Source: Symbiodinium natans (Eukaryota > Sar > Dinophyceae > Suessiales > Symbiodiniaceae). From it: 64,000 nucleotides of DNA. The position numbers and the translations under genes were made by a program. The stretch lies in NCBI GenBank assembly GCA_905221605.1, contig CAJNDS010002501.1:1203501-1267500 (forward strand), read 5' to 3'. Position 1 is the first letter of the stretch. Each line of letters starts with the position of its first letter. Below, piece after piece: positions 8,311 to 35,269 of this stretch. The notes beneath the pieces were generated by a model. The model had not been told where the DNA came from. It worked only from the letters and a program-made list of their open reading frames with translations, and did not search any database.

Positions 8311-8378
8311 CTAGAGGGGACGGAATTCAGCACGGATAGAGGGAGCAGCGTTTCTGTTTTTTGTTTACGGTGTGTGAA

Positions 8379-16010: not shown

Positions 16011-16179
16011 GAACCCTGTATGTGTGGGGTTGAGGAGCAGAAGATCCTGTTGTGGCCCTGTAAACGCTTTGTCCAAGAGCCATGCATACCGGGGAAGGCC
16101 GCAAGTCTTGGCGAGAACTGTATCCGTCCATGCGTAGCAAGTGGCAGCACAGAAAGTGGGTTCGTCATCAGGCCAGAGT

Positions 16180-16700
16180 ACGATGGGAAGAGCAGCATGC
16201 CTCATCCGTGAGGCGTACACAGAAAGCATCGATGAAAGCGATGAACTCCTATGGTGGCATCTTGGAGTTGATTACAAGCAAGCAAGAGCGGTAAAAGGAT
16301 GGAATCAGTGGAACCCGCAAGCGTATGACAATCCTGTTGAAGTGGTGTTGGACAGTGGAGCTGATTGCCATGTATTGCCGATGTGGTACTACGCTGATGA
16401 TCTTGGAACAATAGAATTTCCTGAGTTGAGGATGGTGATCGCAGATGTGATAAGGACAACAGAGTTCTGAGCGAACATCACTTTTGAGTTTGAGAAGGAA
16501 GACGGAAAGAAGATCAAAGTGGTTGATTCTGCAGTGTTTGGAGATGTGACACAACCTTTATTCGCAGTTGGAAAGCGCTGTGGAAATGCGGTTGGGGAAA
16601 AAACATGTCTGAAGAGAGGAAACTCGAGAGCACCAATTCGTTTCCACCGCAACTCGACGGTGACTGAGATGCGGATCTATCGGCTATCGAGCAGCTGAAG
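16180..16700 (+). pseudogene. Copia-like retrotransposon fragment (protease region), broken
   Basis: A plus-strand frame contains the retroviral-type aspartic protease signature VVLDSGADCHVLP (about 16342-16380). An in-frame TGA at 16468-16470 interrupts it. The same frame then continues with PLFAVGK and RAPIRFHRNSTV, which fits the segment between protease and integrase in dinoflagellate Copia-like pol genes. A second stop follows near 16696. No reverse transcriptase, RNase H or integrase was seen, so this is a decayed fragment. It abuts the stem-loop repeat upstream and the giant gene region downstream, but nothing shows it belongs to either. Confidence 0.65.
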
Positions 16701-17175
16701 AATCGAAACCCAAAACTGTGGAAGAACCCGAAAGCTTGAAGTGAAGGAGTCGCTGAAAGAAAATCTGGAAAAGGAGAAATGGATTGAAGGATGGTTCTAC
16801 ATGTCCGGGGAAGACCAGCAAGTTTTGACTGGGACTTGTAGTGCACACACGACCCAAGTGGATTAGGATCACAAGTGTTCAAGTATTGAACAACGATAAT
16901 CGGCGCACGAGGACCGCGGGTTTGGTAGCGACTATCCTGGTGAGCGTCCAGGGAGCTTCCAGGAAACCTATATATAGTCATGGTTTATTTGCTGATGCAA
17001 ACAACTGGGTTGACTTGTGCTGGAAGGTCACATGGCACGCTGCAGCCTTTTGCAGTCAAGCAACCCAACGACCAAACGACTCGTCGCCCTTCCGTCGCCA
17101 GCTTCTCAGAGTTTAGCGTGCCGCGCGCCACATGTTCATGGCGACGCGTGTGAGGACGAGATTCTATGATAATCT

Positions 17176-20100
17176 ATGTCTCTGTTTGACCTCATCGTTT
17201 GTCAGGGCAGCATGATGAATGTGGCTGAGCAGAGGCCAATCCAGCATTCACACTCGCGCATTCGTTTCGTCGTTGCTTCCTTTGTCAGCAGCCGGCGCCT
17301 GTTCAGCACAGCTGACGCCATGATGATAGGCAGGCAGCCCTTTCGTGTTACGCTGGATGCGCAGCCGTCGGGCAGGATTTTGGTGTGGGCAGACGCCCTG
17401 GACGACGAAGATGACCAAAGCATGCGTCTTGCAGCAAACAGTGCCGCAGTAAGCTCATCTGCCAGCTGCTCTGCAGCCGATGTACATACACATGGAAAGC
17501 TTTGGGGCGCAGACGTGTAGCGCAGCGTGTAGCGCAGTTGTGGTCAAGCATAGCTCAAAGGCTCCATGTACTGTTAAAGTCGATCCCTGGGGTCACTTTG
17601 CTCCAGACGGTGCGTTGGACTTTTTGGGCGCGCGGGGTTTTGCCTGGATTATTGTCTGGCGTTCCATAGCTTGCTAGTTGCAAGGATTCCTGACGTGATG
17701 GCGAACGCTGCTTGGGCAGATGAGTTTTTTGCCTGCACTGCAGTAGTGTAATGCAGGAGTACTGTTCTCGCAAGAGCAGGAGGGATTTCCCCAAACAGCG
17801 CGCCAAGAGGATTAATGTTGCTGGCGTCGTGAATGGGACGTTGGCGCTCGCTGTGCTGTTTTTTTGTTATCTGTTTTTGGCTTGCGAAGGCAACTAATAC
17901 TTGAAGTGGTTTGGCAGGTCTACGCTAACGTATTTCGAAGCAGCGAACAACAGGCTGGCCATCAGTCCTCCCGATTATTCTGACGATGAGCCGCCGTATC
18001 TTGGGTGCTTTGGTCGCTGGGTTGGCGGGTAAGGAACAGGAAATGTAGATCGAACCTGGATAGAGCGGGCGCGCTTTCAAACAAGAATTTTGGGTTTTCT
18101 CATTGTCATACTTGGAGTTCCTGGGAAGCTGCGCGAGGCAGGAAGCCTTCAACGACATCACGTCGTGTCTTTGTCGCGCAAGGATCGAGAAGCCATATAG
18201 CTTCGTCGCGCAGACAGTATGTGTTGCGTGCGCAGATGGCATGTTTCCCAGACATGAAATTAGGCGGCAACTTACCATGGCCATCCTGCGCTGCCACTAC
18301 CAGCTTGCAGCTCTCAGGCAAATTCAAAGTCATCGAATGTTAAGTTCATGGCAGTTCATGGTTCATGGCTCACGTGTCATCCCGTTGCAGGCTGTGCCAC
18401 ATGCAATGCAGTGACCCTCGTGCTTGCGCCTACCGCAAAACTGGCCGATTGCGTTGTCGCAGGTGGCGATAGTAAGCTGATTTTGATTGAAACCGAGGCC
18501 ATCACTGCCTTCGAAGTGGGTGTGACGTGACCTACTGTGTTCCGGCTGAGCTTTCGATGTGTTGAGCGTTGCGTGCAGACGCTTTCTGTAAACTTCAGGG
18601 GCCAACATTGGCTTCGGAAAGAAGCAGCAGACAAGATGCAGCTGCGCGCCACGACACACCTTCGCAAGACCCGACTGGTGCACCCTGACCGGCCAACGTG
18701 TTCGCTCTTTTCTAAAATTTCCGCGCGCGTGGAATACCAAGTGTGTCTGCCTTCATCCCCCCGGCGCACGCGAAGCTCAGGTGACAGCCTTGTCAAAGCA
18801 ATTGTGCGCCGGCAGCTTCGCGCTGATGTGGACATTCTGCCTTTCGATCGCGAGGCAGTACGGTGGTCGCGGCTTTCGCGACGTCAGTGGTACACAGGCT
18901 TCCGCGGAGTGCCAAGGCAACCCATTTGCAATAGGAATGAAGGGACCGGCAAGAAGAAACGTGCACTGCTGCATCGTTTATCAAGCGTAAAGACAATAGG
19001 CCTGGCGGCCAGATGCATCCTTTTATTTACGTTCCAAGAAAAGATTCTGAAGTAGCGTCCGCGTCTGCCGAGCTGGAGTGGAAGGACAACGATTCCGGCA
19101 GCGATGCCAACCGGTGCAGATGGTGATTCTATGGAGAACAATGACGAGGTGCTGCTAACGCCAACGATGTTGCAACCTCAGAAAAGAAGACAGGCGTGCG
19201 CGTCTGCTGTTTAACGCGGGTTCATTTTTTTAAGAGCTGCGTACTAATTCGGTGATCGTGAATCGTGTCTGAAACCACAGAGGTCCCTTGAATGGGCGGC
19301 AACTCAGCGAGTCCAACAGCAACGTGAGCGCGCGGCCTACTGGTCTTGCAGTGACTCTGCGCTGCCTTGCCCTAGGTTGCGTATCGTATATATTAGTTGT
19401 GGAACCCGCAGCAAACTCGCCAAGTGTTGAACATGCATGTTGAAAGTTGAGGCGTGGGGAGGACTGGTCTTTGCTTACGAGGCGCCAGCGGAAGCGCCGC
19501 CGCGAGGCAACCTACTGGGATCGGGTCTTGATCCACAATCTGGCGCAGCTTGAGCGCGTCAAGCAGCACCGGTTCATCGTCGCTTACCACATGGACAACG
19601 CCACCTTACAGCAAGCCCTGAGCATGGCTGCGACAGAACCTTGCTGTGCGCGATCAACAACACGAAGAGCCCTAGCTGCAAGAGCTGCGGGTTCAACGTC
19701 GGAAGCGCTGTCGCCGTCGCCGAAGGCAAGCAGTCTTATGAAGTAGTCCTTGCTATAACAAGGAAAGATTCCAGACTTCTCCTGTCCTGGATTTGCCAAA
19801 TGCGACATTGTTCCACGCGCCGTTCGTCCTGCAAAAGCATCATCTTCAACTCTTCGAGGCGACAGTGGACAACTTTTGCGCACGCAGCAGTTCTGAGTCT
19901 CCTGAGACGTCCAAAGTGTCTAGGTGCGTTGCCCGACAACGACAGCGATCAGAGCATCTCGGCAACACAGCGCCGTGGCCACAGCCGGGACCGAAGTTGC
20001 TTGCTGCTGTCAGACTTCAGACCTACTTGTTTTGCGCACGCGTGTGCCTATCTGCCCGAAAGGTACAGTGCGATATGAAGAAGTGTGTCTGGTTGATGCT

Positions 20101-20223
20101 TTGCGTGGCCACGGCTTTAAAATTAACTACAAAGCCCATGGGCCCTTCTGGGCAATGAAAGACGGGTCGAAGATGTTGCAGCCTTTCAGGTAGCTTGTTC
20201 AGCTTCAGGCGTCCTGCGAGCTC
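17176..20223 (+). CDS. 5' exons of the giant gene, unresolved
   Basis: Coding-like islands in shifting plus-strand frames. Examples: 17290-17460 (QPFRVTLDAQPSGRILVWAD, then an acidic ALDDEDDQSM); about 17935-18030 (PPDYSDDEPPYLGCFGRW, ending before GGGTAAGG); 18108-18310 (CLCRARIEKPYSF, then a Cys-containing helix); 18395-18470; 18580-19050; 19480-19615 (basic RRQRKRRREATYWDRVLIHN); 19640-19780 (SPSCKSCGFNVGSAVAVAEG); 20030-20190 (VRYEEVCLVDALRGHGF). Frame changes between islands imply short introns that I did not resolve. The start codon is unknown; an ATG at 17176 is one candidate. No domain is identified before the protease-like module. Confidence 0.4.
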
Positions 20224-20682
20224 ATGTTGTGTATGTCTAGCGCCACAGCATTCTTCGTGCTGCCAAGGCGCTCAGTCACTGCTGTGCCCCGTGCTGATGT
20301 TCTAATTCCAGGCGATTACATTCTTTGCTTTGACGCGCACTTCGTTGCAGTCCGCAATCGAGAAGCAGATGGCCTTCAGATAAACCAGACCAACCGCAGC
20401 CATGCTTGGCTTGACATGGAGCAGAGCGACGAACATGCAGCGGCATTGACACGTTCGGCGACAACGGGCAAGATGCTTCTGAACTTGAACTTTGTGGATG
20501 GCGTTTTCAAGATTCAGACTTTCCAGGAGCTGGGTTACGTGGACGAGAGCCGGGTTGCAGCAGATCACTGTGGTGGTTCTGGAATGCCGCCGCCGGGAAG
20601 CAATGAGCGTGCTGGTGCTGTTTTGTGTCCCACGGAAGTGCGTTCGCCGCAGGCCGTGGATGAAAAAGATGCTTCACGATGA
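20224..20682 (+). CDS. papain-fold cysteine-protease-like module 1 (His half)
   Basis: The exon contains GDYILCFDAHFVAVR (His codon at 20338-20340), then a downstream strand and Asn/Asp positions in NREADGLQINQTN. This is the His-plus-acid half of an OTU/C39-like papain fold. The Cys half should lie in the exon at about 20030-20190 (VCLVDALRGHGFKINY) or earlier, and I could not place the nucleophile securely. The C-terminal part, with a Gly-Pro linker (GGSGMPPPGSNE), probably runs past the exon end. A similar motif pattern recurs near 30476-30780 in the same region. A polyprotein-processing or deubiquitinating role would be inference. Confidence 0.4.
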   Translation: MLCMSSATAFFVLPRRSVTAVPRADVLIPGDYILCFDAHFVAVRNREADGLQINQTNRSHAWLDMEQSDEHAAALTRSATTGKMLLNLNFVDGVFKIQTFQELGYVDESRVAADHCGGSGMPPPGSNERAGAVLCPTEVRSPQAVDEKDASR

Positions 20683-20849
20683 TCTCGTGAGATACAGAGG
20701 TGAAATTCCAGAGCCTTGTGATCTGGAGAAACCTACGTCTAGCTCATTGACGTCACCAGCACGGGCCCCAGCATGAGTGCAGCGCATGCTGTCGAGTATA
20801 TCCCACTGATGTGCACACGTGCCTGCGCATAGCTTTTCTGCGTCGTCTT

Positions 20850-21320
20850 GCCAGGAGCACGGGCTGAGTTACAGCAGCAGCGCGGCGCTTGTGAGCTACG
20901 CGGTCAGTAAGGCTGGAGATGCCTATATGCGACAAAAGCACATGTACAACTGTGCTTCGCCTGTACATGCTGTCAGGAGGAGAATTGCAACAAGCTGGTG
21001 TCCAGAGACACTTTCCAGTCTAGCTGCAGTGAGAAGGCAGTTGCAATAGCACTTTCAACGCTGCTGCTGCTGCTTCATAAAGTACAGGAGTTTGAGAGCA
21101 GCGTTGCACGGACCTTGTCTTCAGGAAGTCCATGTTGCTTGACCAGGCAAAGATGAAAGACGAAGTGTTGATGAAGGCTTTGAGCGCGCAGGACTGTCGA
21201 CAGGCAATCGGCCGGGTCGATCACAGATAGCTTGCTACGCACGCAGCGGTGTTATGAGCTGCTTGGCACCTCAATGCACATCAGGAGGAATCTGGCATCA
21301 ATGGTTCTCTACAGACCATA
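20850..21320 (+). CDS. linker exons between protease-like and F-box/SPRY modules
   Basis: The frame around 20870-21045 reads as a helical, basic, coding-like segment (AVSKAGDAYMRQKHMYNC, then AVRRRIATSW). Further coding-like codons at 21130-21200 (QAKMKDEVLMKALSAQD) occur in another frame, so at least one intron lies between. No known domain. Content and position suggest an alpha-helical linker of the same large protein. Confidence 0.35.
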
Positions 21321-21323
21321 GAA

Positions 21324-23009
21324 GTGGACGCGCAGGGAGATTTTGCTGATCGTCCTGAAAATCTTCCGGCCTGTGATTTCTGTCAGAGGCTTGCGCCGCA
21401 ATTCCCACTAATTACATCGAAGCGCCGCTGTTTGCAAGTCTATTCGAACCAAAAAATGTATTTTGTAAGGACAGCGTCTGGGCGCGCGCGGCGATGGGGC
21501 CGTCTCAGACAAGACGGCAGCCGAGAACACGCGCAAGCCTTGCAGCTCGCCGTAACCGTGTATTGTTACGTGCTTGCAACACATCAGCCCAAGCTTTCAT
21601 ATGTGCTATACACATTGAGGCCAGACAGCGAGGGCCGGTTCTGTCGATGGCAGCGAACCAAAGATGTTTTGGCCGGCTCTTTGCCAGCAGACGTTGTCTT
21701 GACGCTACCGAGTTATCACTTCTCCGTCCGGTACCTTCGCAGCATGGCTCTGTGTTCCAGAACATTGTTGCGGGCTGCGAGAGACAACAGAAACTGGTCT
21801 GACGCCATTATCGATGCCACAGGCTCTGAGTTTGGAAGCACTCAAGCTCTTCGTCAAGCCGAGCGACTATGGAGTCGCGCAAGGCATATCATCCTGACAA
21901 TCCCTCAACTAGCCGCTCATTTCCGTGTTCCGGAGAACGTGCTGATTCGTTGGGCAGGGTGGACAAACCAACAACCCAGACGCGCAGGGGACCGAGTCTA
22001 TTCTTGGGAGTCACAGATTCTTCTGGGCTCGGCTCAGTTTGTACTGATAGCTCCATTCTTCACACAGAGCTTGTACATCGGCATCCAATCACCAAATTCC
22101 AACAGGAGAGCATTCTGTTACCTTACTTGGCCTTTCACGAGTGATATGACAGTTCATTTTGGTCTGGACGGCGGCCCCTTCGTTCGACGAACGTCGCCAC
22201 TGCCAAAACTAAATGCCGGGTTACTCCACCACGTTTCTGTGCATTGGAACCCAAGATGGTTCTCCGTCAGCATGGATGGACAGCTGCTGTCCTTTGCTAC
22301 AGTGCTTGACGGAGTTCCTGATGCCCCAGCCGCGCAGGCGAAACTTTTTGTGTGGGCGGTCACTGTTCCATATCCCTTGCTGCGGAGTCCTATGGTCATA
22401 ACGCCTATGCTGACTTCCAGTGTTCACAATCCGATTGTCCGATGCTGCTTGTGCGGATACGAGGGGTTCTCCTGCAGTAATCGTTGGGGCGTCTGTACTC
22501 TCTGCCAGAACTGGGCATGCAGTGACCACGTCCGCCGAAATCCTCTGCGAAGATGCCCAACATGTGTGCTACTCCTGGAAGATTACTTGGCAGGAAAGAC
22601 TCTCGAGACCTCTGCTTCAGAGCGCCTGACAGAGCTGCTGACCAGAGATGACGACATTCATCTGCGCCATCCACAGCCTCACTTCCCACGCCAAGCAAGG
22701 TGGTTCTTGCTTGACGATGGCCACGCGGAAGTTCCTGCTACTGCTACGTGCTTTGGAGCATTAAGTAATTTTTTCTCTTTGGTTTTCTTGTGCTACTGTG
22801 TTCTGATTATTTTACTTCTGCCTTCGTCTCTAGGTCTATTCCTCTGTGTTGGTGCTGCGGCTACTCTTGCTTGTGCTGCTCTGGCTGGCCTGTTTGTCGT
22901 AGTTGTCTACTTGATTCTGCGCTTGATTTCAGGCAAGGCGCAGGAGGCGATCATGATTCAGACAACGAGTCTGGATTCTGGGGTCCACCCCTTGATCCGG
23001 CGGTGTTAG
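21324..23009 (+). CDS. F-box-like / SPRY-lectin-like / zinc module 1
   Basis: A 561-codon open frame. Near residue 18 a CxxC pair (CDFCQRL) may start a small zinc knuckle. Residues about 126-165 form an F-box-like helical segment (LRSMALCSRTLLRAA). Residues about 205-350 have the strand pattern of a concanavalin/SPRY-like sandwich (HVSVHWNPRWFSVSMDGQLL). Residues about 373-415 carry a treble-clef or RING-like Cys/His cluster (CCLCGY, CTLCQNWACSDH, RRCPTC). The hydrophobic end (about 22760-22930) is probably a pyrimidine-rich intron read as protein, because a coding-like acidic exon (GDHDSDNESGFWGPP) follows in another frame at about 22948. Substrate recognition for ubiquitin ligation is the family role of such combinations; here it is inference. 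Confidence 0.6.
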   Translation: MDAQGDFADRPENLPACDFCQRLAPQFPLITSKRRCLQVYSNQKMYFVRTASGRARRWGRLRQDGSREHAQALQLAVTVYCYVLATHQPKLSYVLYTLRPDSEGRFCRWQRTKDVLAGSLPADVVLTLPSYHFSVRYLRSMALCSRTLLRAARDNRNWSDAIIDATGSEFGSTQALRQAERLWSRARHIILTIPQLAAHFRVPENVLIRWAGWTNQQPRRAGDRVYSWESQILLGSAQFVLIAPFFTQSLYIGIQSPNSNRRAFCYLTWPFTSDMTVHFGLDGGPFVRRTSPLPKLNAGLLHHVSVHWNPRWFSVSMDGQLLSFATVLDGVPDAPAAQAKLFVWAVTVPYPLLRSPMVITPMLTSSVHNPIVRCCLCGYEGFSCSNRWGVCTLCQNWACSDHVRRNPLRRCPTCVLLLEDYLAGKTLETSASERLTELLTRDDDIHLRHPQPHFPRQARWFLLDDGHAEVPATATCFGALSNFFSLVFLCYCVLIILLLPSSLGLFLCVGAAATLACAALAGLFVVVVYLILRLISGKAQEAIMIQTTSLDSGVHPLIRRC

Positions 23010-23062
23010 GGTCGGCGACCCAGAGCGAGGATGGTACGCAACTTGGACCTAAGTGTGTGTGA
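22948..23062 (+). CDS. acidic micro-exon with DSDNE motif
   Basis: The frame starting GDHDSDNESGFW follows ...GCAG|GAG and continues PPLDPAVLGSATQ to a stop at 23060. Similar DSD(N/D)E plus aromatic motifs occur in other exons of this region (about 17965, 19940, 23437). Probably one exon of the giant gene, with its 5' splice site before 23060. Function unknown. Confidence 0.4.
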
Positions 23063-23382
23063 CCATGTCACCATGCCAACGGTTTCTTGCCTACTCAAGC
23101 TCACCGCCCAGGGCCTCGGCCCCATGCAGTTCTCGAGAGCTGCTAGAGGACGACATGTATTCGGCGTCAGGGAGTGAAGAGGACAGTGCGTGCGCTGGAG
23201 GAATTGGTAGCTGTTGGTTGCTGTCGGTGAATTCTGAGTTCGTCCAAGCTGCGCAGCCAAGGAACTCAGTCAATCAAGCCAGCTTCTGGGTCCAGCGCAG
23301 TTACCGCGAAGTGCTGTTGGAGGGCCTTGCTTCTGCAGCGTCAGAAACCGACAGGGACAGCATGCGTCTTGGAATGATGTAG
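23053..23382 (+). CDS. acidic/aromatic exon
   Basis: A coding-like frame, best from about 23100, with MYSASGSEEDSACAGG, then SFWVQRSYREVLLEGLASAA. It contains the same acidic-plus-Trp flavour as its neighbours. It lies between F-box module 1 and the nuclease and is read here as an exon of the same gene. No domain recognised. Confidence 0.4.
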   Translation: MCVTMSPCQRFLAYSSSPPRASAPCSSRELLEDDMYSASGSEEDSACAGGIGSCWLLSVNSEFVQAAQPRNSVNQASFWVQRSYREVLLEGLASAASETDRDSMRLGMM

Positions 23383-23436
23383 CTGTATTTGCAGCCTGCT
23401 CTTAGCAGAGTTGTAGATGTTCAAGCTTTGCCGCCT

Positions 23437-23640
23437 TAAGGGATTCAGACAATGAATCACTCTCCTGGTGGCCGCGCTGCGATGTGTATGTCCAAGAAGA
23501 CGTTGACAGCGATGGAGAATGGGTCTGTGACGACAACCTCTGCTGGCGTTGGGTTCCGAGCTCACAAGCCTCTCAAAGTTTGCAGCTTAGCATGCAGCGA
23601 GCGAACAAGCGCGTGTACGTGTTCGGAATTTCGACCCTTA
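23437..23640 (+). CDS. acidic/tryptophan-rich exon
   Basis: The frame (codon phase of 23484) reads DSDNESLSWWPRCDVYVQED, then DVDSDGEWVCDDNLCWRWVP. It is rich in Asp, Trp and Cys and unlike intron sequence. It overlaps in another frame the first codons of the long nuclease frame, so the true nuclease exon probably begins after an intron ending near 23640-23665. Confidence 0.45.
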
Positions 23641-26136
23641 AGGCAACTTGTCGTCAACACGGTTGAGACCGATGTGCTGGGTGGTGCAGACGCTATTTCA
23701 AGCAGTGCACGGAAGCGCTTGCAAGCCTCCAAGATGGAGGCTATTCAGCGGAAGGCGCGGCGGTTGGCCGTGATGCCGGAGAAGGCCTTTCTGCCCGAGC
23801 TGCGTCGTCAAGGGCACATCCGGTTCCCAGCCTCTCCAGCAGACTATGAGGCTGCTACGATGCCTGATGTAGACGTGCTGCGGCTTTTGCACCCCCATGT
23901 GCGAGACCTTCGTATCAGGTTTGAGCCCGGAGAGCACAAGTATTTTGTGGACGGCAAGAGGATGAAATACTCGGTCACGGGCCTGATCCACCAATTCTGT
24001 GCGCCCTTCAACGCTGACGCGGTAATTGGTGCTATGATGAGGGGGCAGAATTGGCCGCGGCCAGGATATCTGCAGCCGGACATTCCTCTTTATGCTTTGG
24101 CTAGACTGCGCCTTCTAGTACCTGAGCTCCTTCCGCTCCTTGCGGACAGTCCCCGGCATGAGCCACGCATATGCGCTTTGCTTCGAGCGCTCCCACGCGG
24201 CGATAACGTGGAAGATGATGTTGCCCGCTTAGCATTATCGCCTGAGCAAATAAAGGCTAAATGGGCAGCTAATGCTCAAGAAGCGGCCGGTTACGGCACG
24301 TACATGCACCACTTATTCGAGGCATACCTCAATGGGCAGGATGTGCCAAGCTGCTCTCCAGAGTTCCACATGCTGCGTGAGTTCCTGGCGACTTTGCGCA
24401 CATCAGCCAAGGCTTGGCGCACAGAGTGGGTTATCTTTGGTGAGGGTGAAAACCTGGCAGGCTCCGTCGACTTCTGCGCCAGAAAGGATGACGGATCGCT
24501 GGTAGTAGTGGATTGGAAACGCAGCGCAGGCCTCCCCAACAAGTGCACTTCGAACAGTAGAATGCTGGCCCCGCTTCGTCATCTGCCTGACTGCACGGTG
24601 ATGCAGTACCAGCTGCAGCTGAATGCGTACAGATACTTGCTGGAGAAGTATTACAACATGAAAGTCTCCGAAATGTACATTGTCTGTTGTCACCCAGAGC
24701 ATGGCACCCGCCCTTGGGTATGCTCCGTGCCCAGGCTTGAGGAAGAGACAGAGCTCATGATGGCTCACTCGCGTGACGTTCAAGGTGGCGCAGTTGCACC
24801 TCGGACAGAAAGTAAACGCTGGGCAGTGCGTCAATCTCTCCTTCAGCGGCACGCAGATCTCCTGCTTCGGTTTCCATGCGTGGCGTCGCTATGCCCGATA
24901 CCGACCGACCATCGTCTGTCCAGCAAACGAAGCTGGGAGCGAGCCATGCGCAATGCTCGAGTCACACTTGCTCTACTCGAGCAAGAGTCCTACTACATAC
25001 TCTACATGTTTCTTCACACACAATACACGACGATTTCCTTGTCTCATCCAATGGTGAACTTCAACGCGGTCCAATGGGTGCCGGAGGCAGTTGCTGCGGT
25101 TCTGGCACACGAAAGCCAGACACCACGAAAAGCTTGCAAACACCAGCCTGAAGACTTGCAGGGTGGATCGCTGACTCTGTCAGATGAGCTGTTTCGCTGC
25201 ATTGTCATCAGCTCTGCCAGCACTGGTCAGCTGTACCAGCTTCAGACTTGCTGCCGTAGATTTCGAGAACTGGTTTTCCAGAGACAGTCGTGGAGAGATC
25301 TTTGCATACATCTGGACAATTTTGCCAGAGAGAGTGACGAAGATTTTGCTCGCGCGATCAGGCTCCTGCCTGTGTGGCAGGATGCCAAGCAAGTTCTTGT
25401 GTCGTATCGGCTTCTCGGTCGGATGCCTCTGTCAGCGCTGCCGTCAAATCTCAGGATGATGTGGTCTCTGCGTGCTGCGGAGCCTGTCACGATCTTCAAC
25501 TACACATGTTTCGCCTGGGAATCAGTGGAAAACCTGTTTGGCTCAGCCCACTTTGCTCTTAGATGCACGGACCCAGGCGCTACTGTCATCGTTGGTGTGA
25601 AGAAACGAGACGACGTGCAACCGTGGCCGATAGCAAGCCAGCCTCGATCGGTCTTCCTCCGGCTTCAAAAGCCATTCGACAGGGACATGCGTGCTAGCTT
25701 TGGCAGAAGCAACGACTTTTACTTGGATGTGCCAGGGGTCTGCGGCCCTTTTCCAGGACGGAATGCTGAACATGATTTTGCTGTACGGCGGGTGGGGCGG
25801 GAGCTGCAGATAACTATTGACGGTGTGCTGCTCCCAATCTTGCGGCTGCGCCCCGATGTTGTCGAGAGCCTTGGTGCTCACACGAAGGTCTTCGTCAGAT
25901 GCTTCGCCTCTTCAGCAGCAACACAGGCTAGCTTCTCCGTGCGGCCGTTTCCCTGCAGGCTGCAATCAAATTCATGCGTCAGTTGCTTCCGATGTCAGGC
26001 GCTGTCTACTGTTGACGCCAGCCACGTGAAACCTTGCGCTCATTGTTTTGAATGGTTCTGCGCGTTGCATCGGGATCAGGTTGGTGACCGAGAGATTTGC
26101 CACGCTTGTGCAGATGTCTGGGCAGATGCTGTCGGA
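23640..26136 (+). CDS. RecB/Cas4-type PD-(D/E)XK nuclease with F-box/SPRY/zinc module 2
   Basis: The open frame is 23452-26223 (923 codons); residues below are numbered from 23452. An entry strand FEPGEHKYFVDG and SVTGLIHQF precede the nuclease core: GTYMHHLFE (282-290, motif His), GSVDF (Asp340), VVVDWKRS (Asp354, Lys356) and YQLQLNAYRY (Gln387 to Tyr393). This is the full His-Asp-(D/E)xK-QxxxY set of RecB/Cas4/lambda-exonuclease-like enzymes. Residues about 573-623 are F-box-like, about 683-833 SPRY/lectin-like, and about 842-890 a Cys/His zinc cluster (CVSCFRCQ, HVKPCAHCFEWFCALH, ICHACADVW). The last codons before 26223 look intronic; an intron probably runs from about 26130 to 26236. DNA end resection or processing is the expected activity. 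Confidence 0.72.
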
Positions 26137-26236
26137 GGTTCCTCAAACGCTGCAGCTCTCGTGGTCGATTCTCAGGTCTCGCAAGACAGCTTTAGCGCAC
26201 GGGCCGAGAAATTGGGGAGTTGAGCAAGATCTACAG

Positions 26237-28546
26237 GAACAGCTTGCAGCTCAGGATGAGATCTCCCGACAATTGAAGAGCGAATGTATCGAAGAAGCTG
26301 CTGCTGATGTTGATCTTGAGCACCAAGACGATGGTGCCTGGGCAGCCTTGAAGAGAAGGCGCTTGCTGCCTGGCGCTGCCACATCGGACGCTGATTTCCA
26401 CCGCTTGTTCACCAGTTTGGACAAGCACGTAGCTGATCTTGTGCGCGAGGCATCCGACGTGTCGGAAGACCCGAACAGCATTCCCCAGCTGGTGTCGCGG
26501 CACAGGATGCGTATTGCGCGGGTCTATCCAGACATGTCTGAGTACATGTTGAAGCTCATGACAGCCGCAGCGGCCGTGCTTAGTTTGCGCACAGTGGACG
26601 TCTTCCAGCGCGAGAACGCGATGATGCTGTGGATCATCGACGGAGAGTCGCACATGCGCTTTCACCACGGCGACTGCTACCTTTTGCACCAGAGCGGCGC
26701 CTTTCAACAGTACAAAGGTCTTCCTCTCGACTGCAGCCGCGTCCACTGTTTTCTTCTGCATCTAGAAGGCCGGACATGGGCTCCAGAACATGGACGTTGC
26801 AGTGCTGTGTGCTGCAGTGCTCGGAGGTTCAGGGGTACATATAACCCCCTCAATTAATAAGTCTGAAACCTTGCGCAAAAGTAAGTGGGGTTCGAGGCGA
26901 TTACCCTGAACCTCTAAGTCCTGTAGCGTGCTTTGTGACGCCATGACTGCCGACAATAGAGAGCCGAAGCCGAAGCCTTTAATCGTTCGACTTGGCAGGA
27001 TTGTTCCGACAGCTTCCACAGGGAACCCGCCGCACAGAGCAAGAAGTACTCCAAGCGGTGGCAACATTGCTAGCGAGCGCAGACAGCGAGCAGGACTTCT
27101 TAGATTCCTGCCGTTGCTCTGCCGCGAGCAATACAGGAGACCATTTACTCAAAAGCAGGAAGTCGCATGTCGCGCTGCCAGCAGACGATGGCGATGGTGC
27201 ACTTGAGGGGGAAGGAGAAGCGCACATCAACAACTGGAACATTCATTGCGCTCGCATGATTATTGCATTCAAGCGCAACATCATACGGGACCTGGCAGAT
27301 GAGAAACTCATCTCATACATGATCGAGTTTTGCGAGCAGCCAATGGTGCAAGAGCGCGGATGCTGCTACACTGACTACGCTGTCACATACCCGGAGTCAA
27401 GCCCTGCGCAGCAGGTGCTTCTGCTGCAAATGCGAAGGCAGTTACCTAATGACAGCTGCCTTGCGCTCGTTCTGTTCTGAGCATCTTGTGTTCGCGTTTG
27501 TATGTTTGTGTGTTGAGTGTGGGCGCTTTCGAGGTACGCCGGGAGGCTGCGAAGAACATATATGTCCACATACCCCACAGCATCCAGGTCAAGGCTCCGG
27601 ATCCTGTGATGCAGCGTCTGGTGAAGTTTTATCGGCAGACCTTCTGGAGCAATGTGGCGGCTTTCAAGTGCTGCCAAGCTGCTCAGGCATCCGGGTTGCA
27701 TGTCCGACGTCGTTGTTAATCCCTGCCAAAGTCTGAGCGCAGAATGAGCAGCTGAGGCGCTTGCGAAGAGAGGTCTCAATGTTGCGCGCCTCTTCATAGG
27801 TTTATCATCTGGCGGCGTCGGTCAGTCTCTGTATTCAGCTCATTTGGAGGAGCGCCGGGGCAAGTTACCAACAGCGAGGAATGCAGACATGAGCTGGTGT
27901 GCCCATGTTGAAAAGGAGATGTACGGCCACAATTTCGCGTACTTTGACCCGAACATTTGGTACCATGAGGACGAAATGCGAAAGCAGATTGAACAGCTTA
28001 GTGGTAAATTCATCCTGACAGGCTGGGCAGACATGCGTTGCAAGAAACAAGCTGCTTGCTAGGTGTTTCTGTGCGCTGCAATGTGTGTGTGTGCTATAGA
28101 GGTCAAGAAGCCCCCGGCACCAATCGACGTCTACGGGACGATTTGTTTAAGAAGTTCTTGTCCGGCGAAGGCAGCGCTATGATTGATGCGTCGAAAAAAT
28201 CACAAGCCTAGCAGCCAAACAAGTGTACTGTCTTGCAGCCTCCAGTTGCGCAGGCATCTCCGGCCGAAAGCCGTACGGACTTCGAACACGCATGATCCAG
28301 TGCATAGGCTGGAAACGGCTCGAAGCAAACCGTTTCTTTGTCTTTGCCAATGTCACGAAGCGGGAGTTCAACGCCATAATGCGGCGGGCCTTCGTCTTCA
28401 GGATCAGAGCACGTTTTGAGGACGAAAGAGCAATCGAAAGCACCTTTGCCTGCAAGTCAGCATACTGGAAGTTGAGTAACAATATGTTCGCCTGCCAGGA
28501 GGGTGGGCAGGCTGCTGTATATTTGAAAGTCCTGACAGAACAATGA
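26237..28546 (+). CDS. SF3-like AAA+ helicase, multi-exon
   Basis: Exons: 26237-26768, 26999-about 27440, about 27528-27690, 27757-28021, 28102-28170, 28254-about 28500. The join at 26768/26999 restores LLHLEGLFRQLP. Exon 27757-28021 carries LFIGLSSGGVGQSLYSAHL (P-loop at 27811-27828), then NFAYFDPNIWY (Walker B-like, about 27934-27960), then a beta strand FILTG. The next exons complete TGQEAPGT, RDDLFKKFLSGEG and GISGRKPYGLRTRM, the expected motif C and arginine-finger region. The P-loop has Gln where Lys is usual. Introns 26769-26998 (230 nt), 28022-28101 (80 nt) and 28171-28253 (83 nt) are all GC-AG. The likely role is unwinding for the polymerase encoded next. Confidence 0.68.
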
Positions 28547-28547
28547 G

Positions 28548-30420
28548 GTGCTTACGAAGATATCGACAAAGACGGGATCTTCGCCAAAGATCAAGATCTC
28601 AAGCTTTTCTTGACATCTCCCATGGCAACACGCGCTGCTTTGCAGCTTCAGCATGCGTTCGAAGCTCAACACAATCAACAGGACACGCGTGGCAGATGTA
28701 GATCTCTGTCGATGTAATGTTCAATACTGCTTGCGGCAGACTTGGCTTGTTGCAGGACTGTTCTCAGATGATCGAAGACTACGTTCAGTGGGGCGGAGAT
28801 CAGGGTCTGACTGAAAAAACAATGCGTCAGGCCTGCGGATTGCCTCAGCGTGACGTGAGAGACATGTCCAGCCGTGCGCAAGCAATAATCAACGTTGATG
28901 ATGATGATGAGAACGACGGCGCGGGCCAAGACCCGCAAAAAGAGTGGGACTTGCTACGCAAGTTTCTTGTGAGCCATCTGCTGGGCGTGGGCAGATCAGA
29001 CATCACGAGAAGCATGCTTGTGCGTGTCAAACTTCCTGCTGGGCCGAACTTGACAAAAGAGAATGTAGTCCAGGAGCTTGTGAATAACAAGATCCTGGCA
29101 GAAACGACTGGCCGAGGCAAGACTGCCGAAGTTTACAGGCCTCTGCTGGAATGCGCCAATCTTCAGTCGGTGCTCAAGCTCGAAAAGACGCATGTGCAAA
29201 TGTTTTTTCCCGAAACCCTTCAGATCCGAGACTTTGCAGAGTATGTGCAGGGCTGCCCCGTCCGCCGGGAGAACGCTTTGGTGCTGGGCAAGTTTTTTGG
29301 CGCGGCCAAGAGTCCACCACTGCGGGGCCGACCCTCAAAGACTGACGTCGACTGCTTCGACAAGAGCGACGCACGTCACGAGCGCGGGAGAAAGCTACTG
29401 GAGCAGGAAACTTTGTTCAGCGAAATCCTTGTAGAGGTGACTAAGGCATCAGGCAGCGCCCCTACCGCATCGAGTCAAGATGCTCAACCAGCCAAGCGTC
29501 GGCGAGCGAAATCAAAGGAGCTTCAGAAGGTGAAGGAAGAGTCGGTCGATGTGAAGCCATGCACTCAAGACATAAACGTGGCAAGTGTTCCGGAAACGGC
29601 GCACGTTCATCGAGCTTACGTGTACTCAGATGAGGTGCCATTTCGATCGCGCAGGACAGTGAGGGGGGCCGGCATGCAAAAGTTTTGCAGACGCGCTGTC
29701 TTGCGCTTGGCCTCGGGAACAGTGGATCTTGATGTGGAGAACTCGGTTTTCACGCTGATGTACCAACTTATCAAGAAGCTAGCTATCCGTCCACCTCCTC
29801 CAGACAACGTTCTCGAGACTCTCCGCCAGTGTGCCGAAGAACGAAGTCGTGTGTGTCAAGATATACTGAAGACCTCCAAGGCCAGGACCAGCCTGCATGC
29901 GTGTCCGTTGGCGCTGCCTTTTTTGTTTAGTTCAGCATGTACAGATGCGCTTGATGGAGTCATTCGCAAGAACTGAGGCGGATGGGAAGGACAAGCTCAT
30001 CAAAGTCTTCAATGGAGGAGGAATTCCTTCATCTGAAGGAGTCGCCAAAAGCTTCTTGGAGGATGTGTCCAAAGTCTCAATTTACTGCCGATGGCTTGCT
30101 GCATCTTGCTTTCCGGACGAGCACGCGAAATTTAAGCAAGAGGGTAAGAAGAAAAACGCAGATTCTTCTCTTCTCTCTTACTTTTACCACGCCGTGGAAG
30201 ATTCTGTGCTGTCAGCAATTGCCGACTATCTCCTGGCTCAGAACCCAAAGCATCTATCCCTGCATTATGACGGCGTCCGTGTTACTCGGCCCGAAGCCGG
30301 CACAACGGAAGAACTGTGTGACAAGTTGCAAGAGCAGGTGCAGCAGGCAACTGGATTTCGAGTAGTTCTGCGGGAGAAGCTTCATCGCACGGTGTTGGAG
30401 ATCATGTCTGAAGCAGGAAA
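28548..30420 (+). CDS. TV-Pol-like DNA polymerase (polA superfamily)
   Basis: Exons: 28548-28681 (AYEDIDKDGIFAKD, FLTSPMATRAALQLQ), a GA-AG intron 28682-28755, exon 28756-29880, a GC-AG intron 29881-29977, and exon 29978 onward. The polymerase core is GAGMQKFCRRAVLRL, then motif A VDLDVENSVF (Asp codons 29725 and 29731), motif B region GKDKLIKVFNGGGIPS just after the second intron, and motif C SLHYDGVRV (Asp codon 30268). This arrangement matches the TV-Pol family of transposons and viruses. A basic linker (AKRRRAKSK, about 29490) may be a nuclear signal. Without splicing, the catalytic domain is split between two frames that overlap at 29897-29976, which could be mistaken for two genes. It acts with the helicase upstream. 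Confidence 0.68.
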
Positions 30421-31456
30421 TTGTAAGGAGGCATCTGTGCTGGCACCAGACTCCATCTTGCGTGCAAGTGGCAACTGCATTCCAGCTGCAGTGAGTCTGT
30501 TGCTACAGCGTGTGTCAGACGTGGAGCGTGCTGTCGTTGCTGATGGCAACTGTTCCCGGGGCCAAGTCGTCGATCCTGGGGCACCAACAGGCCCGACGAC
30601 GCGGTCATACAGGGAATGCGAAAAGCTTTTGGCCATGAAGTTCCTCCCGTGCTTTCCTGAGCAAGATTCAGCCTCAACACAATGGCAGCCGGGGAATTTT
30701 GTGTTGCACATGGAGAACGGCGGTCAGCCCCACTGCGTGGGACTTCATGTTGCCAATGATCTGGCAGTCAAAGTACTGGACGCAAGCAACACTTTTCAGA
30801 TCGAAGCTTCAATCCTGGATCAAGCAATGCAGGACGGATGCGACAGTCACACTTGCGTTCTTTTCAGTATCGCACGCGCCGCAGAGCAGATCACACCCCA
30901 CGCTTGCTGGGAGCCTCAGGCACTGGAAGCTCTGTTGGACCTGGAAGCTGGTGCTTCCGAAGCCATCGAGGTTCTATCTGACGATGAATGTCCAGAGAGT
31001 GTCGCAAGCAGCGTGTCCGATACTGAGTGGGTTGATGGCGAGCTGTGCTTGGATGAAGATGCCCAGGTGCTCACGGACAGCAATCTTCTTGAGGGCATGA
31101 AGCAAGAGGTGGCCAAAGTGCTAGCCAATAAAGGCGAACAGTGCTTTGAGCAAACAAGGCAAGGACTCAGGTGTCCCTTCTGCCCCTGGCGATGCTTCAG
31201 AAGGTCACGATGCGTTGCGCAGCATGTTCATAGGCGCCACACAAGCAAGAAACAATACTGCTGTTCGGGCACTAAGCAGTTGAAACTAATTCTGGCGTTG
31301 CACGACACCGATGTCATAGCCGGGTTTCCGAAGCGGGACTACCTTCGAAAGAGCGCTGAGCTCCTGCGGCAGCTGCTTCTCTGCAACATCGATACAGTAG
31401 TGTACCACACAACTCGTGCGCGTTTTTTGTTTGTTGCGAGTCTGCAAGGCAAGTGA
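30421..31456 (+). CDS. papain-fold protease-like module 2 plus zinc finger
   Basis: Same frame as the end of the polymerase. ASGNCIPAAVSLLL provides a candidate nucleophile (Cys codon 30476), NGGQPHCVGLHV a candidate His (codon 30731 or 30743), and VKVLDASN the acid. The spacing suits an OTU/C39-like fold. An acidic linker follows (EVLSDDECPESVASS). A zinc finger comes next (about 31170-31270: RCPFCPWRC, RRSRCVAQHVHRRH, QYCCSGTKQLKL). The frame closes at 31454-31456, but the exon probably ends earlier, near ELLRQLL (about 31370), because the next exon-like piece is at about 31600. A polyprotein-cleaving or ubiquitin-removing activity is inferred only. Confidence 0.5.
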
Positions 31457-31599
31457 CGCCAGCTCTCAGTCACAAGAACAACGCCATCGACAGACACCTA
31501 CGTCTTATCTTCTCTGCTACAGGACAGGCTGACAACGGTTTGCTAGGCACTCCAATAGTTTGACAGGTGCATTGCTGTTTGCCAAGGACCTTTCTATGC

Positions 31600-31722
31600 T
31601 CGAGCAGATGCGGTGTTCTCCTTGAAAGCCCGAAGAGCAGGTGATCTCCATTTCACGCACTGCTTTGCCGAGAAGCTTTTTCGCGAAATGTTGTTCAATT
31701 CGGGGAAGGCATGCGCTGCAAG
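31600..31722 (+). CDS. short exon between zinc finger and transposase
   Basis: In one frame this reads RRAGDLHFTHCFAEKLFREM, then LFNSGKACAASDR, ending before GTGAGT at 31723. The acceptor may be near 31600. The following exon begins after CGGGCAG at 31804 and continues VHTAWTRMVLDASVAG. It is the only piece bridging the zinc finger and transposase, so the last two coding blocks can be one gene. Confidence 0.5.
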
Positions 31723-31803
31723 TGATCGCGTGAGTTTGGCAGCGTTGTAGAACCTGAGATGTGAGAATCTTATATCTATTGAAAATCATACTCCTCCGGG
31801 CAG

Positions 31804-33258
31804 GTGCACACTGCATGGACTCGAATGGTGCTGGATGCTTCAGTGGCTGGGTCCAAGCTGACCAACCTCTTTCCCGTGCACAGCAGGTCCTGGTGGCCTA
31901 TGGTGGAAGACATTTTCAGCTCCAGAGTTTGCCAAAGGCTTGCGCAGCAACTCCTGCTTGAATGCGTGAAGCACAACGAGTTCACTTACCTTTCCGTCGA
32001 TGGTACTGTGAAGTGCACTATGCCGCTTCTCGGCCAGAAGAAGCCTGGTGGAAAGCAAAGGAAGTCTGAGCCACTCTTCATCAACGGGGCAGACGCGATT
32101 CACACTGTAGTGACTGTACGGGGACGCTCTGGAGCAGTCGTCGGCTTTTGGCCGTTACTTTCAGAGAAGGCGGAACACTTGCAGGAGGCATTTCTGTGCA
32201 ACTTGCCTCAGGCAGCTCTTGCCCAAGTCCAGTGCGTGGCCACAGACGCACCGTCTTCTCACATGTTCTCGCTCCTGCAGTCGATTATGCCCAACCTGCA
32301 ATGCTTGTGTCTGGACCCAGTTCATCTAGCCATCAAATATGAGTACGCAACAGGGCGCCGAAGAACGAAAGGTTCCGGAAGATTGCGCGCGTGCTTAGGC
32401 AAGTTCAACGCAACCGACGCAAGTTTTGCTGCGGGGCATTGGGGCCCTTTTTTTTCTGGCGCGAGCGCGACATCATTGTCCGCGCGAGAAGCATGTTTGC
32501 GTGAGCAGATTCGCTCAGGTGGCATGGCCACGAGAAAGGCTTCGTCTATCTTGCAGCAGGTCGAAGAAAAGGTGGTGTGGGCAAACCGAACCGAGTTTGT
32601 CGAGTCCCTGGCCGCAATCTCCAAGATGTTCCGCCACGAGGTTGAGCGCAAGGGAGAGAAAAAGGGAATGTTTGTGTATGATCATCTCGCTCATGCGGCC
32701 GAAGCGGACAGACTGGAATGGTTGCTGAACAATTTGCGGTTTCGGTCAACACAACCCGGCTCTGTGCTAAGCCTTTTGGCGTCAGGCACAACCTCGAACG
32801 AGGCCTTGCACGCAGAGATGCGCTCGTGGTTCCGGCAAATTCAGTCCATGCATCAGTCGTCTCTTCGTTTGAAGTGTTCCGCATTCCGGCTGCGCAAGCT
32901 GTTGGAGCACAACACTGCTCTTTATCGACCCACTGCCAGACAGATGACACCTGGTCATGTTTTGGCACGACGACTGGGGCAGAAATTGTGGAGCGCAAGA
33001 GCTTGGCAAAGGTTCGTTGAGGGCAGGCCTGAGCAGCTGCCACTCAAGCGGCTTCGGGACCAACATGCACGCAAGCTGGTCTTGCGCCAGGCTGCCGTAA
33101 TCAGACGGCTCACTGGCAAGCAGCGGCAGCCGCCGCCGCAAGCTGAGCAGGCCATTCGCCGACAAAAGAAGCGCACTGCTTTCACATTGTTGCGTGCAGC
33201 TGGAATCATGCGGCAAGGCGTCGCGAAGCGACGTGCGCCAGCACGGGAGCCGTCGTAA
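31804..33258 (+). CDS. DDE transposase with RNase H fold
   Basis: A 484-codon exon; numbering from 31804. The catalytic pattern is FTYLSVDGTVK (Asp66), QCVATDAPSSHMF (Asp148), LCLDPVHLAIKYE (Asp171, His174) and, after a helical insert, GTTSNEALHAEMRSWFR (Glu333, with Glu338 nearby). The spacing and the D...D...DxxH...SNE pattern fit an RNase H-fold transposase reminiscent of ISL3/MULE types, though I cannot assign a named superfamily. The tail (about residues 415-484) is highly basic with RRQKKRTAFTLLR and probably binds DNA. It ends with TAA at 33256-33258. The GTG at 31804 is not a start but the first codon after a 3' splice site. All catalytic candidates are intact. Confidence 0.65.
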   Translation: MHTAWTRMVLDASVAGSKLTNLFPVHSRSWWPMVEDIFSSRVCQRLAQQLLLECVKHNEFTYLSVDGTVKCTMPLLGQKKPGGKQRKSEPLFINGADAIHTVVTVRGRSGAVVGFWPLLSEKAEHLQEAFLCNLPQAALAQVQCVATDAPSSHMFSLLQSIMPNLQCLCLDPVHLAIKYEYATGRRRTKGSGRLRACLGKFNATDASFAAGHWGPFFSGASATSLSAREACLREQIRSGGMATRKASSILQQVEEKVVWANRTEFVESLAAISKMFRHEVERKGEKKGMFVYDHLAHAAEADRLEWLLNNLRFRSTQPGSVLSLLASGTTSNEALHAEMRSWFRQIQSMHQSSLRLKCSAFRLRKLLEHNTALYRPTARQMTPGHVLARRLGQKLWSARAWQRFVEGRPEQLPLKRLRDQHARKLVLRQAAVIRRLTGKQRQPPPQAEQAIRRQKKRTAFTLLRAAGIMRQGVAKRRAPAREPS

Positions 33259-33860
33259 GGCAGCGCAAGCAAGTCGTGGCAAAAAATGGCAAACGCGTCT
33301 GTGGTTCAACAAGGTCATGGCGTAGACGCCGTGAGGTAGCCCATCCCCAGCAGCGTGCAGTTAAATAAAGATAATATGTACATGTGGCAAGGAATTTCGC
33401 CGAGATTTTGACACAGATTCTGCTTCTGAACTACCCCAGAAGAAGTTGCTTTGTCAAATCGCAAGCGCTATCCCAATGCTGCGTCTCTTCTGCTCTGTAC
33501 AGCCTATAGAGCCTTTGTCCGTCTTTTTCTGTGTAGAGCCAGGCAGGCTCGGGTGCACACATGTCACTTGTGAGTGTCCCATGATGCCGTTACGGGATTA
33601 ACTCTGGGAGTTCACGTAAACGGCGTTGAACTGAACTGGCAGTCTGCTGTTGCATTCTTGGCGCACGACTGGCGACTGACTGGAGCTGGACAAGGCATGT
33701 CGTTCATGGCAGTGCTGGACTCGGAACAGCAACACTGGCAGCGCGCGGAGCTGCGCTGCCTTGACTTGTAGTTTCTCACAAGCTATACTGCACAGTCATG
33801 GCGCCTGCAAGTGATTGCTGCTTTTCGTGCTTTCACTGTGGGAGCTGCGCGCCTGGCTTA
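33259..33860. other. 3' flank of the giant gene
   Basis: No dinoflagellate-type polyadenylation signal can be claimed, though AATAAA occurs at 33363. A frame at 33574-33771 (GLTLGVHVNGVELNWQSAVAF) looks mildly coding but is unrecognised. No inverted copy of sequence upstream of 17.2 kb was noticed here by eye. Confidence 0.4.
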
Positions 33861-33861
33861 G

Positions 33862-34790
33862 GAAGGAGGAGTTTGTTCCACGTATATGAAGGGGTCCGGA
33901 GCTCAGACCTGCCCAGGAGGAGTTTGTTCCACCTATATGAAGGGGTCCGGAGCTCAGACCTGCCCAGGAGGAGTTTGTTTATTTTTCTGAAGAGATCCGG
34001 CCCAGGAGGAGCTTGTTCCACGTAAATGAAGGGATTCGGAGCTCAGACCTGCCCAGGAGGAGTTTGTTCCACCTCTCTGAAGGGGTAGGAGTTTGTTCCA
34101 CGTAAATGAAGGGATCCGGAGTTCAGACCTGCCCAGGAGGAGTTTGTTCCACCTATATGAAGGGGTCCGGAGCTCAGACCTGCCCAGGACGAGTTTGTTC
34201 CACCTATATATGAAGGGTCCGGAGCTCAGACCTGGTTAAGAGGAGTTTGTTTATTTCTCTGAAGAAGGGATCCGGCCCAGGAGGAGTTTGTTCCACGTAA
34301 ATGAAGGGATTCGGAGCTCGCCTGCCTAGAAGGAGTTTGTTCCACCTCTCTCAAGGGGTCTGGCCCACAAGGAGTTTGTTCCACGTAAATGAAGGGATCC
34401 GGAGCTTAGACCTGCTCAGGAGGAGTTTGTTCCACCTATATGAAGGGGTCCGCAGCTCAGACCTGGCCAGGAGGAGTTTGTTCCACCTATATGAAGGCGT
34501 CCGGAGCTCAGACCTGCTCAAAAGGAGTTTGTTCCACCTCTCTGAAGGGGTCCGGCCCAAAGGAGGAGTTTGTTCCATGCAAATGAAGGGAGCCGTTGAG
34601 GAGGAGTTTGTTCCACCTATATGAAGGGGTCCGGAGCTCAGACTTGCCCAGGACACCTATATGAAGGGGCCCGGAGCTCAGACCTGCCCAGGAGAAGTTT
34701 GTTCCACCTACATGAAGGGTTCAGGAGCTCAGACCTGCCCAGGAAGAGTTTGTTCCACCTATATGAAAGGGTCCGGAGCTCATACCTGCG
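33862..34790 (+). repeat. 51-bp minisatellite (17-codon unit)
   Basis: About twenty variant copies of a unit built from AGGAGTTTGTTCCACCTATA, TGAAGGGGTCCGGAGCTCAG and ACCTGCCCAGG. The full unit is 51 bp, a multiple of three, so long plus-strand frames repeat RRSLFHLYEGVRSSDLP. Shortened variants (about 38-41 bp) break the frame often, so a translated repeat protein over the whole array is unlikely. Confidence 0.95.
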
Positions 34791-34974
34791 CTGGGAAGGA
34801 TCACACCCCTAGTTGGGGAAGCTGGGTCAGCAAATTAGGTTTTCGGTGAGTCGAACACAGGATGATGCAGTGAGTGTGAGATACAACTGGCTTAGGCTCC
34901 CTCGTTGAGGAAGCCGAATCAGTGAAGCCAAGCAGTGCTTTTTTGTGGGTATCTCGGGCTATCTGTTGCGCGAG

Positions 34975-35090
34975 GTTGGCCGTGTGAGAATCACACTTCG
35001 TCCTTTCGGGGTGCTGCGCACGATGGCATGTGAGAATCACACGTCGTTCTTTCGGGGCGCTGCGCACGACGGCACTTCTGCAGTGTGGAG
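34975..35090 (+). repeat. short tandem duplication, about 54 bp
   Basis: GTGAGAATCACAC, TCGT(C/T)CTTTCGGGG and GCTGCGCACGA repeat twice in a row (starting about 34982 and 35030). Confidence 0.8.
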
Positions 35091-35269
35091 CACAGGGTTT
35101 TCTCCCAAAAGTGGTTTTCCCTGTGCCCCCATTCACGAAGTCTCAAGGCTTCTAGTGGTTTTGAGCACGGACGTCGACCTTCTAGCAAGGCGTCTTTTAG
35201 AGCTGAGCCAAGATTGATGATTTTGAAGCTTCGGCTTCTAAGGGTTCTTAGAGCCTCTAAGCCCAGGAA

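Follow-up and report, generated by a model that had tools for sequence, protein, structure and literature searches.

Coding core of the element

We analysed a 64,000-nucleotide stretch of the Symbiodinium natans genome (assembly GCA_905221605.1, contig CAJNDS010002501.1, positions 1,203,501 to 1,267,500, forward strand). This stretch, hereafter the window, is C2189:1203501-1267500 in the genome that we searched (759 Mb in 2,543 contigs). The window holds one copy of a mobile element whose ends are fixed and lie in G/C tracts. The element spans window positions -5764 to 36296, a total of 42,061 bp, and so begins beyond the window's left edge. Its conserved core encodes, in order, a Cas4/RecB-like nuclease, a helicase-like domain, a predicted family-A-like polymerase (TV-Pol), a Josephin-like protease, a zinc finger and an IS256/MULE-like DDE transposase. 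A first-pass annotation of the DNA, made from its letters, had proposed, between 17176 and 33258, a giant mobile element in which a nuclease, a helicase, a polymerase, proteases and a transposase are encoded together. The mobile element was borne out by defined ends, dispersed near-identical copies, differing flanks and a gene-less copy; the proposed borders were replaced by the shared right end and the left end given above. Coordinates of the features are listed in Table 1.

Coding sequence on the plus strand was conserved and collinear between the window and a sister copy on contig C1989 from 20062 to 33269. Eleven gaps between blocks were resolved in frame as GT/GC/GA...AG introns of 26-119 bases (the top-scoring candidate for each; alternatives exist), in agreement with the first-pass description of consecutive blocks kept in frame. 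Large open frames were found at 21258-23006, 23440-26220, 26030-26854, 28702-29973, 29870-31453 and 31783-33255. Third codon positions diverged more than second positions in all 12 blocks tested between the window and C1989, and the core appears to be under purifying selection between subfamilies. Pfam and NCBIfam scans of the putative polyproteins gave almost no matches, and tblastn of two of them against 50,697 phage records gave none.

The nuclease was matched by the profiles Pfam PDDEXK_1 (2.6e-5), PHROG_298 exonuclease (5.7e-25) and PADLOC Cas4 (7.9e-5). The helicase-like block, a P-loop-like domain with Q for K in Walker A, may be a counterpart of the D5-like SF3 helicases that accompany TV-Pols; none of the Pfam, NCBIfam and PDB sequence profiles matched it as a helicase.

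For the polymerase, the motif C Asp was present in 16 of the 17 relatives that reach this motif, and the motif A DxD in 17 of 18; relative P0053 has Glu and DxG at these sites, and the window has Asp at both. The Arg of the hairpin that precedes motif A (R365 of relative P0061) was the only invariant column of alignment A2 and corresponds to RSRR in the window. When Foldseek was run against the viral library BFVD, to which the ranking of TV-Pol against PolA applies (cellular predicted structures lie outside the comparison), a Zamilon virophage DNA replication protein was matched at 4.6e-10, compared with 8.8e-3 for the first match named PolA. Zamilon is a relative of Sputnik. Proteins of Catovirus, Pyramimonas orientalis virus and a Qinghai Lake virophage were also among the nearest viral folds. 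PDB sequence profiles gave no significant match to the polymerase. With the support of these tools, the block is predicted to be a virophage-type family-A polymerase (TV-Pol).

The protease of relative P0061 was matched by Foldseek to Josephin-2 (6pgv; probability 1.00, E 0.067, TMt 0.56). The first-pass annotation had spoken of proteases in the plural; one is supported by this Josephin-like fold match, and the second, at 20062-20713, is a guess at the level of a single motif. The zinc finger gave a zf-C2H2_4 match at 0.0019 in relative L008, under the Pfam cut-off.

The transposase has an RNase H fold with a helical insertion and a DDE triad. In a 28-row alignment, D178 and H181 of the C/DxxH motif of the insertion domain were invariant. 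Its nearest structural relative was ISCth4; transposase and polymerase could also belong to other families, which took lower Foldseek ranks. Sequence profiles gave no family name for the transposase, and its own profile had no confirmed match in a prokaryote genome collection. The transposase has 43 protein relatives, and those with names are from Symbiodinium.

Introns between 27408 and 31801 occupy positions common to the 67% identical sister copy and are mostly absent from a distant copy on C1669; AGG stands at many of their borders. These introns are possibly a recent, introner-like gain.

Table 1. Position of each feature in the window, with strand and the residues or observations on which it was placed.
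Feature	Position	Strand	Details
In-window part of the 42,061-bp element	1..36296	+	left end lies beyond the window's edge, at -5764 (G000:C2189:1197736)
1.36-kb insertion inside the element	17240..18596	.	absent from the C43 copy
Short conserved exons; possible second cysteine-peptidase-like protein	20062..20713	+	conserved in C1989; function guessed from an HFVAV motif alone
F-box-like, possible beta-sandwich and Cys/His zinc-finger module (accessory gene)	21258..23006	+	beta-sandwich is a guess
Cas4/RecB-like PD-(D/E)XK nuclease	23440..24762	+	motifs near 24295, 24454, 24502 and 24604
Second F-box-like/zinc-finger module	25144..26142	+	in frame after the nuclease
Conserved stretch, fold unassigned	26219..27408	+	between nuclease and helicase-like domain
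Helicase-like P-loop domain	27510..28684	+	several exons; motif reading; Walker A-like GGVGQS at 27811, Q for K
TV-Pol (predicted family-A-like polymerase)	28753..30400	+	hairpin with RSRR at 29644; motifs A and C at 29725 and 30260; intron ~29881-29977
Josephin-like cysteine protease	30410..30830	+	GNC 30470, PHC 30728
Zinc finger (C2H2/BED-like), possible DNA-binding domain	31172..31330	+	conserved columns
DDE transposase, IS256/MULE-like	31801..33255	+	D73 (31999), D155 (32245), DxxH 178/181 (32314), E340 (32800)
Subterminal tandem repeats	33864..34789	+	units ~51 and ~272 bp
Right terminal inverted repeat	36264..36296	+	imperfect partner of the left tip, 20/33 bases
G24 tract, insertion target	36297..36320	+	left-side counterpart G19, outside the window

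Copies, ends and linkage

A copy on contig C43 was 96-99% identical to the window from position 1 to 36313; the exceptions are the 1.36-kb insert of the window copy and, at about 11.8 kb, a short gap. Both copies end on the right in ...TTCTACCGTGCCAC, followed by G24 or G17 and then by unrelated flanks. On the left, the window's element begins at C2189:1197736, directly after G19. Right ends on C1989, C2489, C1723 and C1806 have the same 14 letters as the window, followed by G or C runs. These four copies form a sister subfamily, mostly 98-100% identical to one another outside repeats; in blocks, they match the window at about 64-78% identity (67% in the transposase). Its near-identical full copies measure 33.8 and 35.8 kb; internal stretches of about 2.4 kb and about 19 kb are missing from C2489 and C1723, respectively. 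Across the genome the transposase frame had at least 95 matches, including one of 100% on C43 and five at 67-70%; the count is a lower bound, with 87 of 229 candidates scored.

Alignment of copy ends, which the first-pass annotation had suggested as a check, yielded imperfect terminal inverted repeats (TIRs) of about 33 bp. In inverted register the tips of the window's element agreed at 20 of 33 bases, a score equalled at 3 of 127,934 other positions on the two strands of the window, and those of C1723 at 23 of 33. The right-tip pattern occurred at 14 genome sites and at none in a reversed control. The left-tip pattern of the sister subfamily had 8 exact sites, each of them paired with a correctly oriented right tip 11.8-33.8 kb away. 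When 3 mismatches were allowed, there were 7 further sites, none paired, which we took as chance (control: 0 forward, 1 reverse). C1989, which has a small indel in its tip, is a ninth left-right pair (35.8 kb), and the window's element is a tenth.

All 14 right ends were found at a G/C tract (13 directly abutting; the one on C2115 three bases off), as were all 10 left ends. The background was 34 G or C runs of at least 9 in 264 kb of sampled sequence, element flanks included. The tract was on the same strand on both sides in 8 of the 10 both-ended copies. Three copies whose tracts are interrupted (C757, C2205 and C2514) fitted a duplication of 10-11 bp exactly; its length is unreadable from pure runs. 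Target duplications of the IS256/MULE group range from about 8 to 11 bp. For ISCth4, a passage gives 8 bp (PMC7780238).

We found at least 55 nuclease-helicase loci (57 matches); this list and the transposase list are both lower bounds. Among the matches listed, 41 of the 55 loci are followed downstream by a transposase on their own strand, at a distance of 2,873-3,265 bp, and none has one on the opposite strand within 8 kb. This spacing is about the length of the polymerase, protease and zinc finger. Many of the listed nuclease-helicase frames were open over 1,731-1,792 amino acids, with stops in a minority. A 1,646-amino-acid protein of Polarella glacialis (P0055) aligned from nuclease to transposase, with parts missing; P0052 has polymerase and transposase in one protein; and the core on C1669 consists of two frames of 819 and 1,455 amino acids, the second with one stop.

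At the left end only, the element carries an array of AT-rich palindromes, which takes up its first 2-3 kb. Counts of the palindromic motif ACTTTAATAT and its complement were 65 for the window's element (left ~3.5 kb), 58 for C1989, 57 for C2489, 47 for C1723 and 37 for the left part of C43; it was found 0 times inside the window itself and in the remaining sequence pieces of the same scan. Folding of the array as single-stranded DNA gave z -15 (300 bases), and two stretches of C1989 gave -8.5 and -7.1 (150 bases each). Control values were -0.1 for the right end and -1.3 and -0.4 for two internal stretches. A 12.4-kb copy on C588 retained 67 motifs within its first 2 kb, together with the right tip, and blastn matched no element gene in the two portions examined (9.7 kb and 1.5 kb; ~1.2 kb lay outside the scan). 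For the other left-right pairs of ~12-13 kb the tips were compared, and for C446 also the 3 kb around the right end. The left array may be a replication origin or a transposase-binding array, and copies with the array and tips alone leave the cis-requirements open to direct testing.

Related transposase copies were paired on the same strand 8-23 kb apart on C385, C1850, C391, C1856, C1065 and C1110, which suggests tandem or nested copies. The right flanks at C757:902480-902600 and C1068:199980-200100 were almost identical and their left flanks differed, as recombination between copies or misassembly would produce.

Interpretation and alternatives

We consider this a giant self-synthesizing DNA transposon, a reading that we hold to be probable: it would work in a Polinton-like way with different parts. 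Its mobility is observed in the copies and ends described above. Self-replication, as the first-pass annotation had supposed, is predicted from the set of enzymes and the array of palindromes. The class is suggested by a predicted way of working that resembles that of a Polinton, with differences in those defining parts that were tested. One or two polyproteins would carry the core and be cleaved by the Josephin-like cysteine protease; the earlier proposal of one or a few polyproteins agrees with the large parts of the core found in single long frames of relatives, and cleavage would be a further, predicted step. Guided by the zinc finger, the transposase may bind the imperfect inverted repeats and act by a replicative copy-out/paste-in-like route, by analogy with ISCth4. 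TV-Pol would copy the element from the left-end palindromes as origin, with help from the helicase-like domain and the Cas4-like nuclease, and the product would be pasted into a G or C run with a duplication of about 10-11 bp.

Several observations weigh against this reading. In the window, as in each of the 6 relatives aligned, the Walker A lysine is missing from the helicase-like domain (G(G/A)VGQS), and at this block the first-pass statement that all catalytic candidates were present fails. The RxxxK fingers motif of TV-Pol was not clearly conserved; R429 and K445 were nearly invariant, with a spacing that is not that of RxxxK. Foldseek against the PDB, taken alone, gave one match at E 0.001 for the polymerase and none for the transposase (best Hermes, 0.066). 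Of 3,024 codons compared between the window and C43, 21 differed nonsynonymously and 11 synonymously, which gives no indication of selection after the two copies separated. For the window's element, the left end was seen in a single copy, the sequence of C43 being N there, and the left-tip pattern of the sister subfamily does not match it. In C446 and in C1068 the tracts on the two sides lie on opposite strands, which is unexpected for simple target duplication; recombination or misassembly is a possible cause. Among the matches listed, 14 of 55 nuclease-helicase loci had no transposase inside 8 kb. Replication, transcription and enzyme activity are themselves predictions from sequence.

The element could instead be a virus that has become endogenous. 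Such a virus would be related to virophages or polinton-like viruses, have a TV-Pol, integrate by a captured transposase and either still form particles or have lost its capsid. The nearest viral-library folds of the polymerase are virophage and giant-virus proteins, and to that extent the virus-derived origin offered by the first-pass annotation has support. In the sections of two reports that bear on this question, fusions of PolA with SF3 helicase are known in related polinton-like viruses (PMC12721341), and dinoflagellates, including two Symbiodinium, hold capsid genes of such viruses (PMC10120064). However, no coding block beyond 20062-33269 was common to both subfamilies at E 1e-4, which seems to leave a conserved capsid gene without a place. 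Pfam gave no capsid match in 6 further reading frames or in the other frames scanned, which together cover part of the element's frames; IMG/VR held no relative of the transposase or the helicase-like domain; and none of the protein relatives listed carried a precomputed Pfam domain. With no capsid gene or viral relative found in this limited search, we regard a virus as improbable.

Similarly unlikely, in our estimate, is an ordinary cut-and-paste MULE-type transposon whose replication genes are captured cargo and whose polymerase has no role in movement. The transposase by itself has the DDE and DxxH residues, the gene-less copy has the same ends, and capture of gene pieces by MULEs is mentioned in a review (PMC6431247, in the portion concerned). 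Passive cargo would decay or vary, whereas this block appears to be under purifying selection, and, among the matches listed, 41 of 55 loci from divergent subfamilies keep its order and spacing. The likeness of the window and C43 along the whole length and the many near-identical groups would also fit a cluster of host genes, or a segmental duplication, wrongly taken for a mobile element. We rejected this explanation as extremely improbable, since identity stops at the same terminal base and the flanks differ; moreover, inverted termini are common to several contigs, and the first 800 bases of the right flank had no second match in the genome. For the same reason no empty site was found.

The self-synthesizing transposon that we favour resembles Polintons/Mavericks, which are large eukaryotic TIR elements with their own DNA polymerase, DDE enzyme and cysteine protease and are described as self-replicating (passages of PMC6431247 and PMC11071308). 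The parts differ: a family-A TV-Pol stands in place of a protein-primed PolB, an IS256/MULE-like transposase in place of a retroviral-type integrase and a Josephin-like protease in place of an Ulp1-type enzyme. The present element also has a core nuclease, short imperfect TIRs and G/C-tract targets. Polintons have capsid and packaging ATPase genes; here, a limited search of part of the frames found no capsid family. Membership of the unmodified Polintons was rejected, as no retroviral-type integrase was found.

With TV-Pol elements and virophages such as Sputnik, the likeness lies in the polymerase fold and motifs and in a helicase-like companion (PMC2579912, in part). Unlike these, the element is nuclear and eukaryotic, with the helicase-like domain before the polymerase, a linked nuclease and a DDE transposase of IS256/MULE type. 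The transposase shares with ISCth4 the RNase H-like fold, the order of the DDE residues and the helical insertion with its C/DxxH motif; copy-out/paste-in by ISCth4, the relation of IS256 to MULE and the motif itself are treated in sections of PMC7780238. In contrast to IS256/MULE elements, the transposase here belongs to a 42-kb element, in whose core it lies. Casposons are prokaryotic and Cas1-based, and Teratorn is a fish herpesvirus-piggyBac element. We know of no parts that either has in common with the present element. Both are other joinings of a polymerase or virus genome with an integrase or transposase, as outlined in part of PMC6431247.

With slightly better than even confidence, we propose a new, Polinton-independent superfamily of eukaryotic self-replicating transposons, in which a replicative transposase of MULE/IS256 type, a Cas4-like nuclease and a virophage-type TV-Pol would be produced as a self-cleaving polyprotein; replication would start from a terminal array of palindromic hairpins, and insertion would be into G/C homopolymers. 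Among open-licence papers we found no description of such an element, or of this enzyme combination in any nuclear genome, as the first-pass annotation had surmised for the whole assembly. In the relevant part of a 2019 review, Polintons are the self-replicating DNA transposons described for eukaryotes, and the joining of a nucleic-acid-primed polymerase with an integrase was foreseen to give transposable elements of unprecedented size (PMC6431247). If the proposal is true, the combination of polymerase and DDE enzyme arose more than once in eukaryotes, and the range of TV-Pol widens from phages, a plastid and virophages to nuclear transposons. The element would also be a eukaryotic example of replicative copy-out transposition. 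Its TV-Pol would be linked to a nuclease, contrary to a statement in the 2008 description that TV-Pols never occur with nuclease fusions or conserved linkages (PMC2579912, in the passage concerned).

Accessory modules and minor observations

The window's element has two F-box-like/zinc-finger modules and the C1989 copy has three (L015 and L032 are among the entries). These modules match one another and are 22-57% identical to the first window module. This first module was 58% identical to its C1989 counterpart over 349 residues. In alignment A4 the Cys/His residues were invariant and an F-box-like segment was present in 2 of 6 members, with an F-box match at 0.04. PDB sequence profiles gave no significant match to the module, and its 3 protein relatives are all without names. 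These proteins are probably accessory factors and may act on the host ubiquitin system.

The insert at 17240-18596 may itself be mobile DNA nested in the element. For a 362-amino-acid frame on the left side of the sister element (L014:5740-6825, C1989:2120740-2121825), neither a window counterpart nor a Pfam match was found. A short frame at 16138-16467 of the window has a retroviral-type aspartic protease-like motif, VLDSGAD, and is perhaps a retrotransposon remnant; Pfam gave no match. Degenerate telomere-like TTTAGGG/CTAAACC repeats were dispersed through the sequence examined, at 2615-3101, 39762-39885 and many other loci.

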